64,000 nucleotides of DNA from Comamonadaceae bacterium (lineage in GTDB: Bacteria; Pseudomonadota; Gammaproteobacteria; Burkholderiales; Burkholderiaceae_C). Positions 40,966 to 48,386 of the stretch are shown here, in pieces; within the stretch, counting starts at the first letter, position 1, and each line of letters opens with the position of its first letter. The DNA is taken from assembly GCA_004144865.1 (NCBI GenBank), contig SEAY01000002.1:1-64000 (forward strand). The letters are read 5' to 3'. Under the pieces are notes generated by a model, which was not told the DNA's origin, made no database searches, and saw only the letters and a program-made list of their open reading frames with translations. Both the position numbers and the translations under genes were made by a program.

Positions 40966-42189
40966 ATGAAGTCCGGATCCACCTTCCTGCTCGCGGCGCG
41001 CCAGTGCGAGATCGCCGAACTGGAGGAGCTCGCCCGCACCGCGGAACTGGTGGGGGTGATAGGCCGCGGCATCCACGCGCTGCAGCGCGAGCGCGGGCTG
41101 ACCAACGTGTTCCTCAGCTCGCACGGCGCGCGCTTCGGTCCGCAGCGCCTGCAACAGGTGGAGGAATGCCGCCGCATGGAAAGCGAAGTGCGGGCGGCCT
41201 TCGACGGGCTGGACACCGGCAGCGCGCAGGCGCGCAACGGCGCGCGGCTCTTCAGCCGCGTCGCCGTGGTCCTGCACGGCCTGGACGGCCTGCCGGCGCT
41301 GCGAGAGCGGGTCGCGCGACAAGTGCTCTCGGGACCGGAGGCCGTCGCCGCCTTCAGCCGGCTGGTGGCGGGATTGCTGAGCGTGGTGTTCGAGGCGGCC
41401 GACAGCGCGACGGACCCGCAGGTGTCGCGCGCCCTGGTCGCCCTCTTCAACTTCATGCAGGGCAAGGAACTGGCCGGCCAGGAGCGCGCGCTGGGCGCCG
41501 CGGCCTTCGCCGCCGGCAGCGTCGATGCGGCGCGCCAGCAGCAATGGCGCCACCTGGTCGACGCGCAGCAGGGCTGCTTCCAGGTGTTCGCGGACTTCAG
41601 CGACGCCGCGGTGCTGCAGTCCGAGGCCGCGAGCCGCGAGCCCGTGGTGCTGGCCGAGATCGAGAGGCTGCGCCGCATCGGCCTGGCCGCGCGCGGCGAT
41701 GCGCTGGATCCGGACCTGAGCGCCGCCTGGTACGAGGCCTGCACCCGGCGCATCGACGGCATGCGCAGGGTCGAAGACGTCCTCGCGCTGCACCTGCGCC
41801 ACCTGTGCGAAGCGCGCATCGCGCAAGCCCGCACGGAGCTGCGCGACCAGCGCGCGATGCTGGAAGCGCTGGCCAGCGCCGTGGACCCCGCCGGCGCTGG
41901 CGGCACCCCCTACGGCCCGCACCTGGAGCGCTCGGTGCTCGCGATGGTGCAGGAGCAGTCACGCCGGCTGCAGGCCATGGGTGACGAACTCGACGCGGTG
42001 CGCGCCTCCCTCAACGAACGCAAGCTGGTGGAACGCGCCAAGGGCCTGCTGATGGCGCACCGGCAAATGAGCGAGGACGACGCGTACAAGGCGCTGCGGC
42101 AGATGGCGATGAACCAGAACCGCAAGCTGGCCGACGTGGCCGAGGCGGTGCTGTCGCTCGCCGAAGTGCTGCCCGGCGCCCCACGCTGA
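40966..42189 (+). CDS. nasR: Nitrate-responsive ANTAR antiterminator (NasR type: NIT + ANTAR)
   Basis: The protein is about 407 residues. The N-terminal two-thirds is an all-helical NIT nitrate/nitrite-sensing domain, with the motif [16 protein letters not shown] (about 39-54) that carries the conserved Arg of NasR. Residues ~340-400 form an ANTAR RNA-binding domain ([20 protein letters not shown] followed by [13 protein letters not shown]). In Klebsiella, NasR with bound nitrate prevents termination in the nasF leader. Here the leader of the adjacent importer operon has matching RNA features. An ATG at 40942 is an alternative start; neither has a clear ribosome-binding site. Length is close to Klebsiella NasR (393). 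Confidence 0.88.
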
Positions 42190-42197
42190 AGGGGCGA

Positions 42198-42214
42198 TGC
42201 ACTGCTGCGGTGCA
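42198..42214. promoter_or_regulatory. NtrC-type binding site
   Basis: TGCACTGCTGCGGTGCA is a perfect dyad (TGCAC-N7-GTGCA) that fits the 17-bp NtrC consensus. It lies about 110 bases upstream of the -24 element of the sigma-54 promoter at 42323, a normal enhancer distance. Confidence 0.65.
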
Positions 42215-42239
42215 GAAATACGATGGCCCAGCCCACGCC

Positions 42240-42315
42240 GTCATTCCCGCGGAGGCGGGAATCCAGGGCATCCCGGGAGGCGAAAGCCCTGGGTCCCCGC
42301 CTGCGCGGGGACGAC
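42240..42315. repeat. TCATTCCCGCG palindromic repeat (copy 3)
   Basis: The near-intact copy reads GTCATTCCCGCGGAGGCGGG to CCCGCCTGCGCGGGGACGAC. It is wedged between the NtrC-type site and the sigma-54 promoter of the nitrate importer operon, where it sets the enhancer-promoter spacing. Confidence 0.9.
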
Positions 42316-42322
42316 GGAGAAG

Positions 42323-42340
42323 TTGGCACGGTCCCTGCAT
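42323..42340 (+). promoter_or_regulatory. Sigma-54 promoter of the nitrate importer operon
   Basis: TTGGCACGGTCCCTGCAT has the -24 GG (42325-42326) and -12 GC (42337-42338) exactly 12 bases apart, matching TGGCACG-N4-TTGCA with one mismatch in the -12 box. Transcription should start near 42350, seven bases before the first leader hairpin. Confidence 0.85.
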
Positions 42341-42349
42341 GACCTCTTC

Positions 42350-42478
42350 CGAACGGGCGCCAACGGCGGCGCGCTGACAACCCGAACATCGGACAACGGC
42401 GTCCATCCCTGCGTGCCCCGGCGCGCAGCGCGATGGCCGCCGTTTCTTTTTTCCTTTCTTCGCAACCAGGAGCCCACG
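42350..42478 (+). promoter_or_regulatory. ANTAR-type antiterminator leader with attenuator
   Basis: Hairpin 1 (42357-42372) is GCGCC-AACGGC-GGCGC. Hairpin 2 (42391-42404) is GGAC-AACGGC-GTCC. Both hexaloops have A at position 1 and G at position 4, the rule established for ANTAR targets. Downstream, CAGCGCGATGGCCGCCGTT (42426-42444) can pair with AACGGCGGCGCGCTG (42362-42376, loop and 3' arm of hairpin 1) or, over seven bases, with the loop of hairpin 2. The TTTCTTTTTTCC tract starting at 42443 follows directly. Hairpin and terminator folds therefore exclude each other. The ribosome-binding site AGGAG precedes ATG 42479. Confidence 0.8.
42362..42460 (+). terminator. Attenuator (intrinsic terminator) in the importer leader
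   Basis: The 15-base arm 42362-42376 pairs with 42426-42444, with a 4-base bulge (ATGG). The stem ends directly at a U-rich run TTTCTTTTTTCCTTTCTT (42443-42460). The large loop could itself fold. No gene ends here, so termination would be premature and regulatory. Confidence 0.7.
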
Positions 42479-43771
42479 ATGCAAAGCAAACCCCACGCGC
42501 CCACCCGCCGAACCGTGCTGCAGGGCGCCGCCGCCCTTGGCGGGGCGAGCCTCTTCCCCGGCATCGCGATGGCGCAGTCCACCGCCCTCGAAACGAAGGC
42601 CGCCAAGCTGGGCTTCATCGCGCTCACCGACGCCGCGCCGCTCTTCGTGGCCGACGAGAAGGGCTTCTTCAAGAAGCACGGCATGACCGAGGTCGAAGTC
42701 CTCAAGCAGTCCTCCTGGGGCGCAACGCGCGACAACCTGGTGCTGGGATCGAAGAGCAACGGCATCGACGGCGCGCACATCCTCACGCCGATGCCCTACC
42801 TGATCACCACTGGGGCGGTGACGGCCAACAACGTGCAGGTGCCGATCCACATCCTCGCGCGGCTGAACCTCGGCGGACAGGGCATCTCGGTCGGCAACGA
42901 GTACAAGGACCTGAAGGTCGGCCTCGATACCAAGGCGTTCCGGAAGGCGCTGCTGGACAAGCGCGTGAAGACCGGCAAGGCGGTGAATGCCGCCATGACC
43001 TTCCCCGGCGGCACGCACGACCTGTGGATCCGCTACTGGATGGCCGCGGGCGGCGTCGATCCCACGCGCGACATCAATACCATCGTGGTGCCGCCGGCGC
43101 AGATGGTGGCCAACATGAAGGTGGGCAGCATGGACACCTTTTGCGTGTGCGAGCCCTGGAACCTGCAGCTGATCCACCAGAAGATCGGCTACACGGCCAT
43201 CACCACCAGCGAAATGTGGATGAACCATCCGGAGAAGGCCTTTGCGATGCGCGCCGACTACGTGCAGGCGAACCCGAACGCCACCAAGGCGCTGCTGAAG
43301 GCGGTGATGGAAGCGCAGATGTGGTGCGAGGACCCGAAGAACCGCGCCGAAGTCGCCGAGATCTGCGCACGCCGCCGCTGGATCAACGCGCCGGTGGAGG
43401 ACATCGTCGATCGCATCAAGGGCAACTTCGACTACGGCACCGGGCGCGTGGAGAACGACAGCAAGTTCCAGATGCGCTACTGGAAAGACCAGGCCAGCTA
43501 TCCCTTCCAGTCGCACGACCTCTGGTTCCTCACCGAGAACCAGCGCTGGGGCTACCTGCCGCCCAACATCGACACCAAGGCGCTGATCGCCAAGGTGAAC
43601 CGCGAGGACATCTGGCGCACCGCCGCGAAGGAACTAGGCGTCGCAGCGAAAGACATTCCCGCCTCCACCTCGCGCGGCGTGGAGAAGTTCTTCGACGGCA
43701 AGGTGTTCGATCCGGCCAACCCGAAGAAATACCTCGACAGCCTCGAGATCAAGTACGTCAAGGCGGCGTGA
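42479..43771 (+). CDS. nrtA: Nitrate ABC transporter substrate-binding protein (NrtA/CmpA family)
   Basis: The 430-residue binding protein has a twin-arginine-type signal (RRTVLQGAAALGGASLFPG, residues 10-28, cleavage after AMA at 32), suggesting Tat or Sec export. The mature protein has NrtA features: LGFIALTDAAPLFVADEKGF at the start, GTHDLWIRYWMAAGGVDP and the substrate-pocket region VGSMDTFCVCEPWN. It captures nitrate or nitrite in the periplasm for the following permease and ATPase. A cytoplasmic NasS role is unlikely because a signal peptide is present. Translation is preceded by AGGAG. Confidence 0.92.
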   Translation: MQSKPHAPTRRTVLQGAAALGGASLFPGIAMAQSTALETKAAKLGFIALTDAAPLFVADEKGFFKKHGMTEVEVLKQSSWGATRDNLVLGSKSNGIDGAHILTPMPYLITTGAVTANNVQVPIHILARLNLGGQGISVGNEYKDLKVGLDTKAFRKALLDKRVKTGKAVNAAMTFPGGTHDLWIRYWMAAGGVDPTRDINTIVVPPAQMVANMKVGSMDTFCVCEPWNLQLIHQKIGYTAITTSEMWMNHPEKAFAMRADYVQANPNATKALLKAVMEAQMWCEDPKNRAEVAEICARRRWINAPVEDIVDRIKGNFDYGTGRVENDSKFQMRYWKDQASYPFQSHDLWFLTENQRWGYLPPNIDTKALIAKVNREDIWRTAAKELGVAAKDIPASTSRGVEKFFDGKVFDPANPKKYLDSLEIKYVKAA

Positions 43772-43781
43772 GGAAGCCAGC

Positions 43782-44645
43782 ATGCACGACAGCGAAACGA
43801 TCCATCCCATCCCGCTGGCGGTGCCCGCGGAGCCGGGGCCGCTGCGCCGCGCCTTCGCGCAGGCCACGCGGATCTTCATGGGGCACGTGCTGCCGCCGCT
43901 GGTGATCATCGGCCTGCTGGTGCTGGTGTGGGAGGTGCTGGGCTCGCGTCCGGGCGCCAGCCTGCCTGCGCCCACCAAGGTGGTGCAGGACACATGGGAG
44001 CTCATCACCCAGCCCTTCTACGACCACGGGGGCAACGACGTGGGCATCGCGTGGCAGCTGCTCGCGAGCCTGAAGCGCGTGGCCTACGGCTATTCGCTCG
44101 CGGTGCTGGCGGGCGTGAGCCTCGGCGTGCTGGTGGGCCAGTCGACCTGGGCGCTGCGCGGCCTGGACCCGCTGTTCCAGGTGCTGCGCACGGTGCCGCC
44201 GCTGGCCTGGCTGCCGATCTCGCTGGCCGGTTTCCGCGACGGGCACCCGTCGGCGATCTTCGTCATCTTCATCACGTCGATCTGGCCGATCATCATCAAC
44301 ACCTCCATCGGCGTCCGCAACATTCCGGAGGACTACCGCAACGTCGCGAAGGTGATCCGCCTCAACGGCCTGGAGTACTTCGGCAAGATCATGCTGCCGG
44401 CCGCCGCGCCCTTCATCTTCTCGGGGTTGCGCATCGGCGTCGGCCTGTCGTGGCTGGCGATCATCGCGGCGGAGATGCTGATCGGCGGGGTGGGCATCGG
44501 CTTCTTCATCTGGGACGCCTGGAACTCCTCGCGCATCAGCGACATCATCCTGGCGCTCGTGTACGTGGGCCTGGTCGGCTTCGCGCTGGACCGCATCGTC
44601 GCCTTCATCGGCCGCAAGGTGACCCGCGGCACGGCCGCCAACTAA
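43782..44645 (+). CDS. nrtB: Nitrate ABC transporter permease
   Basis: The 287-residue inner-membrane permease of the NrtB/SsuC type has six transmembrane helices. The EAA-like coupling loop IPEDYRNVAKVIRLNGLEYF contacts the ATPase, and TVPPLAWLPISLAGF is a family signature. It forms the transmembrane channel of the nitrate importer. It begins ten bases after nrtA. Confidence 0.92.
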   Translation: MHDSETIHPIPLAVPAEPGPLRRAFAQATRIFMGHVLPPLVIIGLLVLVWEVLGSRPGASLPAPTKVVQDTWELITQPFYDHGGNDVGIAWQLLASLKRVAYGYSLAVLAGVSLGVLVGQSTWALRGLDPLFQVLRTVPPLAWLPISLAGFRDGHPSAIFVIFITSIWPIIINTSIGVRNIPEDYRNVAKVIRLNGLEYFGKIMLPAAAPFIFSGLRIGVGLSWLAIIAAEMLIGGVGIGFFIWDAWNSSRISDIILALVYVGLVGFALDRIVAFIGRKVTRGTAAN

Positions 44646-44662
44646 AGACCCGGAGGACCACC

Positions 44663-45508
44663 ATGACCAAGCCCTACCTCTCGCTGTCGCAGGTCGACAT
44701 GACCTTCCCCGGGCCGAACGGCGGCAACCCGGTGCTGAAGAACATCGACCTCGACGTCCGGCGTGGCGAGTACATCTCGCTGATCGGCCACTCCGGCTGC
44801 GGGAAGTCCACGGTGCTGAACATCGTCGCCGGCCTGCTGAAGGCCACCTCGGGCGGCGTGATCGTCGACAACCGCGAGGTGAACGCGCCCGGCCCCGACC
44901 GTGCCGTGGTGTTCCAGAACCACTCGCTGCTGCCCTGGCTGACCGTCTACCAGAACGTGGAGCTGGCCGTCGGCAAGATCTTCCGCGACACGCGCAGCGC
45001 CGCGGAACGCAGGGAGTGGATCCTGCACAACCTGGCGATGGTGAACATGTCGCACGCGCTGGACCGCCTGCCCTCGCAGATCTCCGGCGGCATGAAGCAG
45101 CGCGTGGGCATCGCGCGGGCGCTCGCGATGGAGCCCAAGGTGCTGCTGCTCGACGAACCCTTCGGCGCGCTGGACGCGCTCACGCGCGCGCACCTGCAGG
45201 ACGAGGTGATCCGCATCCAGTCGGAGCTGGGCAACACGGTGATGATGATCACGCACGACGTCGACGAGGCGGTGCTGATGTCGGATCGCGTGGTGATGAT
45301 GACCAACGGGCCGGCCGCCACGATCGGGCAAGTGATGGACGTGCCGCTGGAACGCCCGCGCAACCGCATCGCGCTGGCCGAGGACGCCGTCTACAACCAC
45401 TGCCGGCAGGAGATCCTGAGCTTCCTCTACGAGAAGCAGCGGAAGGTGGAAGCGATCGGCGCGCGGACTTCGGCGGCGCGGACGGAGCGGCAGAAGGCGG
45501 TGGCGTGA
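44663..45508 (+). CDS. nrtD: Nitrate ABC transporter ATP-binding protein
   Basis: The 281-residue ATPase has Walker A GHSGCGKST (about residues 42-50), Q-loop VFQNHSLLPWLTVYQNVELA, signature ISGGMKQRVGIARALA, Walker B VLLLDEPFGALD and the switch His in ITHDVDEAV. These match the NrtD/SsuB importer group, without the C-terminal binding-protein domain of NrtC. It starts 17 bases after nrtB with AGGACC ahead of the ATG. The last ~20 residues are Arg/Ala-rich. Confidence 0.93.
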   Translation: MTKPYLSLSQVDMTFPGPNGGNPVLKNIDLDVRRGEYISLIGHSGCGKSTVLNIVAGLLKATSGGVIVDNREVNAPGPDRAVVFQNHSLLPWLTVYQNVELAVGKIFRDTRSAAERREWILHNLAMVNMSHALDRLPSQISGGMKQRVGIARALAMEPKVLLLDEPFGALDALTRAHLQDEVIRIQSELGNTVMMITHDVDEAVLMSDRVVMMTNGPAATIGQVMDVPLERPRNRIALAEDAVYNHCRQEILSFLYEKQRKVEAIGARTSAARTERQKAVA

Positions 45509-45719: not shown

Positions 45720-46967
45720 TCAGCCGATCAACACCTGGATGCTGTGCTGGTAAGCCGCCGTCAGCTCGTCGAACACTTCCAGCAGTTCCTCGCTCGCGGC
45801 GGCCACCTTCAGCCGCCCCGCTCCCTGCGCCGCCGCCGGCACCGCCGCCAGCAACTCCTGCCAGGCGGCGCGGCCGCGTTCCAGCATCCCGCGAATGTCC
45901 GGCGTCGATAACGGCGCGCTCTCCAGTTCGGCCAACCCCTCCTCGAAGGCCGCGGCGGTCTCCGCCAACGCCGCAGCATCGCCTTGCAGCAGCGCCAGCT
46001 TGGCCAGGCGCTGCGACAGCATGCGCTGGCGCCCGGACACGTTGATCACGTGCACCTGGGTGGCGAGCCCGGAAGATTCCAGCGCCGACACCAGCGCATC
46101 GGCCTGCGCCAGCACCGCCTCGGCATGCTGGTCCAGCAGCGGCAGGTCGGCCGCCCGGGGCGGCACATCGAGCAGTTCGCGCAGTTGCCGCCAGCCGATG
46201 CGCGCGGCGCCGACCAGGTCGCCGTAGGTCGCCGCCGAGAGCTCGGCGCCCAGCGCCGCCAGGTTGTCTTCCACCCGCTGCACCGACTGGCGCATCAGCA
46301 CCGCCGCCGCCGCGCCTTCCGTGCGGCTGCACGCCAGCGCGTAGAGCTTCACCAGCCGCTGCGACAGCATCCGCTGCTGGCCCGCGCGATTGATCGCGTC
46401 GCCCACCCGCGCTGCGTCGATCACCTGCCGCGACAGCTCACCCACCCGCTGGTTGCCCTGCATGGAGGCCGTGCGCAGCAGGCGGAAGGCCTCTTCCTCG
46501 CTGACATGCGAGGCGCGCATCAGGATGCCCTTGGCCTTGTCCACCCACTTGCGCTCCTCCAGCTTGCCCGCCAGTTCCTCGATGCGGGAGCGCAAATGGC
46601 GTTCGCGCTGCTCCCGCGCCTGCGCCAGGTGCACCAGCGGCCGCAGGCGCTGCGGTGCATAGCCCTGCACCACCCACGCGTGCACGCCCGCTTCAAGTGC
46701 GGCGTGCAGCGACTCGACACCGGCGTCCTGGGTGAAGAGCAGCACGGGCACCGGCTGCTGGGCCTGCAGGATGGTGACGGACTGCAACAGCTCCGGCGTG
46801 GGGCGCGGCGCCCAGCACACGAGCACGTCGGGCGACGCACGCAGGGTTTCACGCACCAGATGGGCGCAATCGCCTTCGCCGCAGACATGAAATCCCGCCG
46901 CGGCGAAGTCGGAGGCCCATGCAGGTGCACCGGGATCGGGCACGGAAAGGAGGAGAACGGAAGTCAC
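45720..46967 (-). CDS. ANTAR antiterminator fused to two PilJ/NarX-like nitrate-sensing segments
   Basis: The 415-residue soluble protein starts with GTG. Residues 1-120 resemble a degenerate response-receiver fold as in NasT, lacking an obvious phospho-Asp. An ANTAR domain spans ~128-187 (ERKWVDKAKGILMRASHVSE, EEAFRLLRTASM). Two helical segments follow, each opening with a NarX/NarQ P-box-like motif: AINRAGQQRMLSQR (191-204) and INVSGRQRMLSQR (308-320), matching the PilJ-type nitrate/nitrite sensor domain. No transmembrane helices are present. By inference it senses nitrate itself and acts on leader RNA. It is divergent from narK and convergent with nrtABD. An ATG further upstream would run through the narK promoter. 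Confidence 0.85.
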   Translation of the reverse strand: MTSVLLLSVPDPGAPAWASDFAAAGFHVCGEGDCAHLVRETLRASPDVLVCWAPRPTPELLQSVTILQAQQPVPVLLFTQDAGVESLHAALEAGVHAWVVQGYAPQRLRPLVHLAQAREQRERHLRSRIEELAGKLEERKWVDKAKGILMRASHVSEEEAFRLLRTASMQGNQRVGELSRQVIDAARVGDAINRAGQQRMLSQRLVKLYALACSRTEGAAAAVLMRQSVQRVEDNLAALGAELSAATYGDLVGAARIGWRQLRELLDVPPRAADLPLLDQHAEAVLAQADALVSALESSGLATQVHVINVSGRQRMLSQRLAKLALLQGDAAALAETAAAFEEGLAELESAPLSTPDIRGMLERGRAAWQELLAAVPAAAQGAGRLKVAAASEELLEVFDELTAAYQHSIQVLIG

Positions 46968-46996: not shown

Positions 46997-47014
46997 CCTG
47001 GCACGGTCCCTGCA
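46997..47014 (+). promoter_or_regulatory. Sigma-54 promoter of the narK-nirBD-nasA operon
   Basis: CTGGCACGGTCCCTGCAA is identical over 15 core bases to the promoter at 42323. The -24 GG (46999-47000) and -12 GC (47011-47012) are 12 bases apart. The start point should be near 47024, about 130 bases before the narK ATG. No perfect NtrC dyad was found nearby. Confidence 0.82.
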
Positions 47015-47023
47015 ATGCAGGTT

Positions 47024-47153
47024 GCATCGGGTGTGATGAAGCACCCGGGCCGGGCATCGTACCGCCGGCCGTGCGCACGACGTGGTGTGCTGACCCGTAC
47101 CCAACGCAAAGGCGTGGCCGCTCCGGCCGCGCCTGGTCCAGACACACGAACGA
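47024..47153 (+). promoter_or_regulatory. Structured leader of narK with two hexaloop hairpins
   Basis: Hairpin 1 (47027-47046) is CGGGTGT-GATGAA-GCACCCG and hairpin 2 (47072-47089) is GCGCAC-GACGTG-GTGTGC. Both loops are six bases and read GA(T/C)G, with G rather than A at position 1 and G at position 4. A third, 11-bp hairpin (47109-47133, AGGCGTGGCCG / CGGCCGCGCCT) lies 20 bases before the start codon and has no U tract. There is no clear ribosome-binding site, so control may act on translation. Confidence 0.55.
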
Positions 47154-48386
47154 ATGAGCGCCTCCAAGACCTTCCTGCAGTCCGGCCACGCGCCCACCCT
47201 CTTCGCGGCCTTCCTGTATTTCGCGTTCTCCTGCGCCATCTGGGTCCTCAACGGGGCCATGGCGCCCTTCATCAAGGAGGCGTACCAGCTCAGCGCGGCG
47301 CAGATGGGCCTGATGCTGTCCATCCCCATCGTCGCGGGCGCGCTGATGCGGTTCCCGCTCGGGCTGCTGGCGCAGTACATCGGCCGCAAGGCGGCCACGC
47401 TGGTGGAGATGGGCCTGATCGCCATTGCGCTGGTGTTCGGCCTGCTGTTCGTGGACAGCTTCGACGACCTGCTCGCGATGGGCGTTCTGCTGGGCATCGC
47501 CGGTGCCAGCTTCGGCGTGGCGCTCTCGCTGGGCTCGGGCTCCTTCCCCGCGAAGCACAAGGGCCTGGCCATGGGCATCGTGGGCGCGGGCAACGTGGGT
47601 ACCGCGGTGTCCGTGTTGCTGGCGCCGCCGCTGGCCCAGTGGCTCGGCTGGCAGGCCGTGTACGGCGTGGCCGCGGTCGGCATCCTCATCCCCGTCGCGG
47701 TGATGATCGCCTGGGGCCGCGAACCCGGCGACGTCAACCGCCACGGCACGTTGCGCGAGCACGCTGCCTGCCTGTTCGAGCACGACGGCTGGGTGTTCAG
47801 CATCATCTACTGCGTGAGCTTCGGCGGCTTCATCGGCCTCACCAGCTTCCTGCCCTCCTATTACTTCGACCAGTTCGGCGTGAGCAAGGTGGAGGCGGGC
47901 CAGCTCACGATGCTGGCGGCTTTCATGGGCGCGGCCATGCGCATCGTGGGCGGCTGGATCTCGGACCGCTGGGGCGGCCTCAACACGCTGACGGTGGTGC
48001 TGCTGGTCGTCACCGCCTCGCTCGTGCTGGTCGGCTTCAGCACGCACTCGCTGGCGCTCACCACCGCGCTGCTCGTCCTGTGCTTCGCCGCGCTCGGTGC
48101 CGGCAACGGCGCGCTGTTCCAGCTGGTGCCGCTGCGCTGGCCGACGACGACCGCCGTGGCCGGTTCCATGATCGGCGAGGTCGGCGCGCTCGGCGGCGGC
48201 CTCGTGCCCGCCGCCATGGGCCTCTCCAGGCAATACCTCGGCAGCTACGGCTGGGGCTTCTTCCTCTTCGCCGTCCTGGCCTTCCTCGTGCTCGTCGTCA
48301 TGCGCCTCATGCAGTCCCGCTGGACGCGCACCTGGGCCGAGCGCGGCGGCCGCGCCCGCGTGCAGCCGGCCCTGGCCGCCACCTGA
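47154..48386 (+). CDS. narK: Nitrate/nitrite MFS transporter (NarK/NasA family)
   Basis: The 410-residue transporter has 12 transmembrane helices. The two nitrate-signature Gly-rich motifs are present: GIVGAGNVGTAVSVLLAPPL in helix 5 and IGEVGALGGGLVPAAMG in helix 11. Nitrate-binding Arg residues are expected near MRFPLG and MRIVGG. It probably imports nitrate for assimilation, a second route besides the ABC importer. It is the first gene of the narK, nirB, nirD, nasA run. Confidence 0.92.
   Translation: MSASKTFLQSGHAPTLFAAFLYFAFSCAIWVLNGAMAPFIKEAYQLSAAQMGLMLSIPIVAGALMRFPLGLLAQYIGRKAATLVEMGLIAIALVFGLLFVDSFDDLLAMGVLLGIAGASFGVALSLGSGSFPAKHKGLAMGIVGAGNVGTAVSVLLAPPLAQWLGWQAVYGVAAVGILIPVAVMIAWGREPGDVNRHGTLREHAACLFEHDGWVFSIIYCVSFGGFIGLTSFLPSYYFDQFGVSKVEAGQLTMLAAFMGAAMRIVGGWISDRWGGLNTLTVVLLVVTASLVLVGFSTHSLALTTALLVLCFAALGAGNGALFQLVPLRWPTTTAVAGSMIGEVGALGGGLVPAAMGLSRQYLGSYGWGFFLFAVLAFLVLVVMRLMQSRWTRTWAERGGRARVQPALAAT

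Follow-up and report, generated by a model that had tools for sequence, protein, structure and literature searches.

A NasR-type ANTAR attenuator proposed for a nitrate importer operon of Ramlibacter, and a possible second ANTAR switch before narK-nirB

In the 64,000 nucleotides of soil-bacterium DNA analysed here (the window), a gene for a NIT-ANTAR protein lies just upstream of a nitrate importer operon, nrtABC, and the locus thereby raises the question of whether the leader that precedes the operon (42350-42478; leader 1) is the RNA through which the one controls the other. The original prediction had read this leader as a complete ANTAR antitermination switch, with two identical hexaloop hairpins, a terminator behind them and nitrate-bound NasR as the protein that keeps transcription going. 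We consider it very likely that leader 1 is a NasR-type ANTAR transcription attenuator of nrtABC, with a different account of how the terminator forms. Beyond that prediction, the analysis brought up a sigma54-type promoter and, in the same cluster, a second ANTAR gene and a second leader (Table 1).

Table 1. Features of the nitrate gene cluster, in positions of the window
Feature	Position	Strand	Remarks
nasR, NIT-ANTAR nitrate-responsive antiterminator	40966..42189	+	Pfam NIT E 2.6e-51, ANTAR E 1e-20
NtrC-like dyad TGCAC-N7-GTGCA	42199..42215	.	possible enhancer
sigma54-type promoter TGGCACGGTCCCTGC	42324..42338	+	predicted start near 42350
hairpin P1	42357..42372	+	hexaloop AACGGC, A1 and G4; covariation over 20 leaders
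hairpin P2 (antiterminator)	42391..42404	+	hexaloop AACGGC, A1 and G4; kept in relatives
intrinsic terminator	42395..42452	+	5' arm is P2 loop and 3' arm, pairing 42395-42444; U-tract 42443-42452
nrtA/nasF-like nitrate-binding protein (NMT1_2)	42479..43771	+	Pfam E 1.6e-101
nrtB nitrate ABC permease	43782..44645	+	TIGR01183 above cut-off
nrtC/D nitrate ABC ATPase	44642..45508	+	TIGR01184 above cut-off
receiver-like + ANTAR + PilJ fusion	45720..46967	-	GTG start inferred
second sigma54-type promoter	46999..47013	+	sigma54-type site of leader 2
leader 2 hairpin H1	47028..47047	+	hexaloop GAUGAA
leader 2 middle hairpin	47048..47070	+	conserved loop; double change at one pair (GC 8/12, AU 4/12)
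leader 2 hairpin H2	47073..47090	+	hexaloop GACGUG
alternative pairing of H2 3' arm and following bases with narK start-codon region	47085..47156	+	16/17 leaders
narK-type MFS nitrate/nitrite transporter	47154..48386	+	Pfam MFS_1; TIGR00886 E 1e-65, below cut-off; first gene of second operon

Architecture of leader 1

The product of nasR, rightly called a NIT-ANTAR protein from the outset, matches the Klebsiella NasR structure 4akk over residues 10-399 (E 6e-52), and two arginines aligned between them are presumably nitrate ligands, an assumption of ours that an excerpt of PMC8199190 helps. The NIT and ANTAR domains and the presumptive ligand arginines by which a NasR-type regulator is recognised are all present. 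Leader 1 carries tandem hairpins of the kind that ANTAR proteins bind: the letters read GCGCC-AACGGC-GGCGC (P1) and GGAC-AACGGC-GUCC (P2) at exactly the positions first proposed, with A at position 1 and G at position 4 of both hexaloops and a C-G pair closing each loop. The long stem and U-rich tract that were said to follow are likewise there, the U-tract preceding the nrtA-like start codon at 42479. On its own the terminator has a predicted energy of -34.3 kcal/mol, and it shares the loop and 3' arm of P2, so that the two are mutually exclusive. A small hairpin, CCGA-ACA-UCGG (42382-42392), would in predicted folds hide the first bases of the 5' arm of P2.

At a G+C content of 69%, and with a folding energy that is unremarkable by itself (z-score -1.94 for 42340-42480), one might suspect a terminator that works constitutively, or hairpins that a GC-rich leader forms by chance, with no protein partner in either case. 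A scan for two C-A..G..-G hexaloop hairpins (stems of at least 4, within 60 nt) with a U-tract behind them nevertheless returned leader 1 and nothing else from both strands of the window, and no match in 100 dinucleotide shuffles of one strand. Together with the conserved A1/G4 loops, the covariation and the ANTAR linkage described below, this makes either of these readings extremely unlikely.

The promoter-like site TGGCACGGTCCCTGC fits the sigma54 boxes TGGCAC and TGC, with 5-7 bases between them, as quoted in an excerpt of PMC12316311, and the usual -12 spacing would place the transcription start near 42350. Such a site is present for 94 of the 104 leaders assembled below, a count that is not independent because the model used to find most of them includes promoter columns. 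Further upstream stands a dyad whose pattern we take to be NtrC-like; one of three related dyad patterns occurs within 250 nt upstream in 33 of the 94 leaders, nine of them with the stricter TGCAC-N7-GTGCA form, and in none of 279 downstream control stretches, which are mostly coding. Between the dyad and the promoter (42235-42320) lies a REP-like inverted repeat, the 27-base core of which recurs 170 times in the genome (81 forward, 89 reverse) at up to two mismatches.

From these parts a mechanism can be proposed. Transcription would probably begin near 42350 from the sigma54-type promoter, presumably under nitrogen limitation. With no nitrate, the loop and 3' arm of P2 would pair with GAUGGCCGCCGUU to give the intrinsic terminator; with nitrate, NasR from the adjoining upstream gene would bind the A1/G4 hexaloops of P1 and P2, and P2, held by NasR, would stay shut while the polymerase reads on. 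The binding of NasR, its dependence on nitrate and the read-through are what we infer from the arrangement.

Relatives of leader 1 and the partner of its terminator

A search for the leader in related genomes, proposed with the original prediction, found relatives in which the hairpins covary and ANTAR genes co-occur. Among 20 aligned leaders, 7 of the 12 pairs of P1 and P2 change on both sides (six in P1 and one in P2, with 18 such cells), and none of 500 shuffles reaches any of five measures of covariation; P2 covaries little because it hardly varies. Within the order, a model built from these 20 leaders, promoter columns included, gave matches in 75 of 250 genomes, and an ANTAR gene is found in 67 of the 75 compared with 60 of the 175 others (E <=0.01, p 1.8e-16), or in 61 of the 64 order genomes whose leader match has E <=0.001. 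The eight leader genomes of the order in which no ANTAR gene was found have weak leader matches (22-33 bits). Across the class, the figures are 28 of 28 leader genomes and 63 of 248 others (E <=0.001, p 1.3e-15), in a sample to which the window's own genome belongs. At least 41 of 88 leader matches lie downstream of an ANTAR domain in the same orientation, with a gap of under 500 nt. It is linkage and co-occurrence, then, that point to an ANTAR protein as the partner of leader 1. The protein encoded upstream has both NIT and ANTAR domains in the window's genus (presumably Ramlibacter) and in some other genera, and elsewhere it is an ANTAR protein with no NIT match, while the design of the leader is much alike. 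Conservation, covariation, gene neighbourhood and co-occurrence thus agree with an antitermination switch of ANTAR type that NasR likely reads.

For the survey of relatives we used 104 loci, namely 86 order-level matches (two of the original 88 were dropped as adjacent hits to a leader already counted) and 18 loci picked because the leader was visible in them, and the set is accordingly not a random sample; several further matches from the search that gave the 18 showed no leader by eye. The first recognised gene downstream is NrtA-like, NarK-like or NirB in 91 of the 104 (68, 12 and 11), where the NrtA-like matches may include NasS. Twenty-six loci failed the filters (10 with no sigma54-like site, 13 with no P2 by rule, 3 with no U-tract), among them the same-genus leader L014, which lacks a U-tract, and some weak loci that may not be leaders. 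In every one of the remaining 78, with P2 of L031 misplaced by the rule, the terminator is built on P2, so that homologous leaders do have the hairpins and the terminator whose absence would have spoken against the switch.

The part of the original prediction that did not survive is the role given to hairpin 1, which it had named as the main 5' partner of the terminator. The likely transcript, 42350-42456, has a minimum-energy fold of -51.2 kcal/mol in which P1 stays a hairpin and the terminator forms from P2 (42395-42444), compared with -38.5 kcal/mol when P1 and P2 are both held. Folding therefore bore out the hairpins and the terminator but put the latter on P2 in this transcript, even though the minimum-energy fold of 42340-42480, with promoter and coding bases included, uses P1 and its centroid uses P2. 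Of the 68 filtered leaders in which the two hairpins could be compared, 65 have a terminator arm that favours P2 by pairing strength, and P1 as a conserved terminator partner was rejected on that count. The exceptions are the window (-23.6 kcal/mol with P1, -18.9 with P2), the sister-species leader L029 of genome G011 (-23.1 and -18.9) and, marginally, L043 (-15.2 and -14.7). In the arm motif GAUGG-x-CGCCGUU, x is C in the window and L029, and A or G in the relatives inspected; this C mismatches P2, giving a U-C opposition, and matches P1, for which reason we regard pairing with P1 as a local option and not a shared design. The same mismatch and the better pairing with P1 make the efficiency and partner of the terminator less certain here than in relatives. 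An attenuator of the same core, in which the terminator forms mainly with P1 and P1 becomes the decisive antiterminator in the window's species, would draw on the duplex energies of the window and L029 and on the longer fold; the fold of the likely transcript, the preference of the relatives, the marginal third exception and the expectation, which is ours, that local hairpins form first leave it very unlikely. Our preferred reading keeps P2 in that role. In keeping with it, the P2 loop and arm pair better with their own terminator arm than with the mean of the arms of other-loop leaders in 72 of 81 comparisons (means -14.3 and -11.3 kcal/mol); here the rule put P2 of L048 and L110 in the wrong place.

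Some relatives carry a third hairpin. Two A1/G4 hexaloop hairpins with stems of at least 5 stand before P2 in 15 of the 85 leaders (of 104) in which P2 was assigned for this and the downstream survey (L048 and L031 by hand, L110 probably wrongly), where shuffles would give 0.0; they are L072, L076, L077, L080, L081, L083, L084, L085, L089, L090, L092, L099, L110, L112 and L031. The form occurs in none of the 19 leaders with a NIT-ANTAR gene upstream, and a literature search for ANTAR targets with three hairpins returned nothing on target.

A second ANTAR protein and a second leader

Besides nasR, a single ANTAR gene was found in the genome, which is 93% complete, and it encodes a fusion of a receiver-like part, an ANTAR domain and a PilJ tail. 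The receiver-like part matches 6wsh and CheY chains and has no Pfam receiver match; the tail matches the chemotaxis transducer chain 6gcv (E 1.3e-5), presumably the nitrate receptor McpN, and both of its repeats contain G-x-x-R, given as a nitrate-box motif in an excerpt of PMC8199190. Full-length orthologues occur in 11 of 61 genomes, all of the window's genus and the window's own among them. In some relatives, NasT-like and PilJ-like matches stand at separate places, about 6 kb apart in G004. A protein of this kind in the same cluster could also bind leader 1 and be its main reader in place of NasR. Seven same-genus genomes (G001, G003, G009, G016, G017, G021 and G031) nonetheless carry a NIT-ANTAR gene and leader 1 with no fusion match at E <=1e-10, although G001, G003 and G017 are less than 95% complete, and the fusion gene faces another leader instead; we hold it highly unlikely that the fusion is the main reader, and take NasR to be so.

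What the fusion gene faces is the operon of narK, nirB and a nitrate-reductase-like molybdopterin gene, with leader 2 (46999-47156) before it. This leader comprises a separate sigma54-type site and, conserved in relatives, the three hairpins H1, middle and H2. In 12 leaders of this type, position 4 of the H1 and H2 hexaloops is always G, and position 1 is G in 10 (H1) and 5 (H2) and otherwise A; the window has G at position 1 in both loops, while both loops of L163, whose upstream gene encodes a NIT-ANTAR protein, show A1 and G4 (AACGCU, AACGUG). Inspection by eye of the stretch from H2 to the start codon, in the window and in its relatives, showed no U-tract, and so no terminator. Leader 2 thus misses two defining features and is not filed as a classical ANTAR target; nor has it an Rfam match at E <=3.

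Pairing of the start-codon region, by contrast, recurs. In the minimum-energy folds of all but one of 17 leaders, the partner of that region is the 3' arm of H2 together with the bases that follow (in the window the start-region stretch involved is CAGACACAC), compared with 33% of folds when the stretch from H2 to the start is shuffled. When H2 is held, the start region becomes more open in 14 of the 17, slightly more closed in two (L132, L133) and no different in L134. The mean number of pairs is 11.2 as against 3.4 after shuffling, and none of 100 shuffle sets reaches the observed total, although kinship among the 17 sequences means that they do not count as independent. Taken leader by leader, 0-14 of 100 shuffles reach the observed value, and all 100 do so for L134, which lacks the pairing. 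Other measures discriminate less. Swapping the H2 arm and start region between species changes the mean from -14.9 to -14.2 kcal/mol, almost no difference, as the sequences are too alike; duplex shuffles reach the observed H2-start energy in 1 to 300 of 300 cases per leader; and covariation is thin, with 1 of 18 pairs changing on both sides, a result reached by 428 of 500 shuffles (500 of 500 for further pair types). The 17 sequences comprise the window, 11 of the 15 loci of a first search and 5 of 14 further loci (L126-L135, L137, L154, L160-L163). From the first search, L136, L138 and L140 showed no leader by eye and L139 gave no such stretch; of the further loci, L142 and L164 look like relatives and were left out of the pairing, swap and shuffle tests, and the other seven were judged chance by eye.

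A model of leader 2 finds matches in 20 of 59 same-genus genomes, with E <1e-10 in 17 of these, and in 7 of 399 genomes of the order, where only the window and G282 reach E <0.001; it is not fully specific, 2 of 22 genus matches being leader 1 of G025 and G021 (E 1e-4 and 2e-4). The fusion gene adjoins leader 2 in 15 of the 17 genomes. In the remaining two, G021 and G026, the fusion has no match and a NIT-ANTAR gene is present, which in G026 stands directly before L163. NasR may for that reason read leader 2 as well.

We put forward as a tentative proposal, possible more than probable, that leader 2 is a translational, activating ANTAR switch before narK-nirB and hence a second kind of switch in the same cluster. 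Unbound, the 3' arm of H2 would pair with the start-codon region and block ribosomes; bound by NasR, by the fusion or by both, H2 would be held and the start codon freed, with the fusion, by virtue of a NarX/McpN-like domain, serving as a nitrate sensor in the cytoplasm. If this is true, two sensors would read one nitrate signal, which would act on the transcription of the import genes and on the translation of the reduction genes.

Comparison with known systems

Rfam contains a family, RF03032 (narK RNA), that matches 42325-42405 at 32.8 bits (E 3e-4), below its gathering score of 43.2, and leader 1 is accordingly no member by that score. Model positions 1-72 of 72 align all the same, through GGCAC...TTGC, the AACGGC hairpin and a GAC-N6-GUC stretch; the model draws only P1 as paired and covers P2 as unpaired. 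Its first ~16 positions look like a sigma54 promoter, and this part would then be DNA that is not transcribed, so that the narK RNA looks like a sigma54 promoter joined to an ANTAR site. The family matches 31 of the 250 order genomes at E <=0.001, three of them above the gathering cut-off, and all 31 have an ANTAR gene, compared with 96 of the 219 others. No paper was found in a literature search under the names narK RNA, narK motif or RF03032.

For leader 2, the nearest likeness is with the translational ANTAR RNAs of actinobacteria and mycobacteria, in which ANTAR-type hairpins also lie near the start codon; according to an excerpt of PMC8164766, binding there represses, possibly by covering the ribosome site, whereas in leader 2 it would free that site. 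In the excerpted parts of PMC7496416, PMC3369931, PMC8164766 and PMC3369936, ANTAR proteins that switch translation on were not found described, and leader 2 with the ANTAR-PilJ fusion would allow a direct test of whether they do.

Leader 1 has closer counterparts. The eut leaders read by EutV share the two hexaloop hairpins and a P2 that is mutually exclusive with the terminator (PMC3369931, in excerpt); they differ in that sensing here falls to a NIT domain within the ANTAR protein itself and not to a kinase, and in the sigma54-type promoter of the present leader. In Klebsiella oxytoca, NasR and the nasF leader combine a NIT-ANTAR protein, two A1/G4 hexaloop hairpins, a P2 that overlaps the terminator and nitrate assimilation genes downstream (PMC7496416 and PMC3369936, in excerpt). 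Competition of the terminator through the hairpin loops, which had been thought unusual, therefore already belongs to the published ANTAR model, as far as the excerpts of these three papers go. Unlike the Klebsiella system, the one described here comes from Burkholderiales, has its importer operon apart from a narK-nirB operon with a leader of its own, and differs by one base in the window that makes P1 an alternative terminator partner. Leader 1 is very probably the form that the known NasR/nasF ANTAR attenuator takes in Ramlibacter, a genus to which it extends NasR control on comparative evidence.
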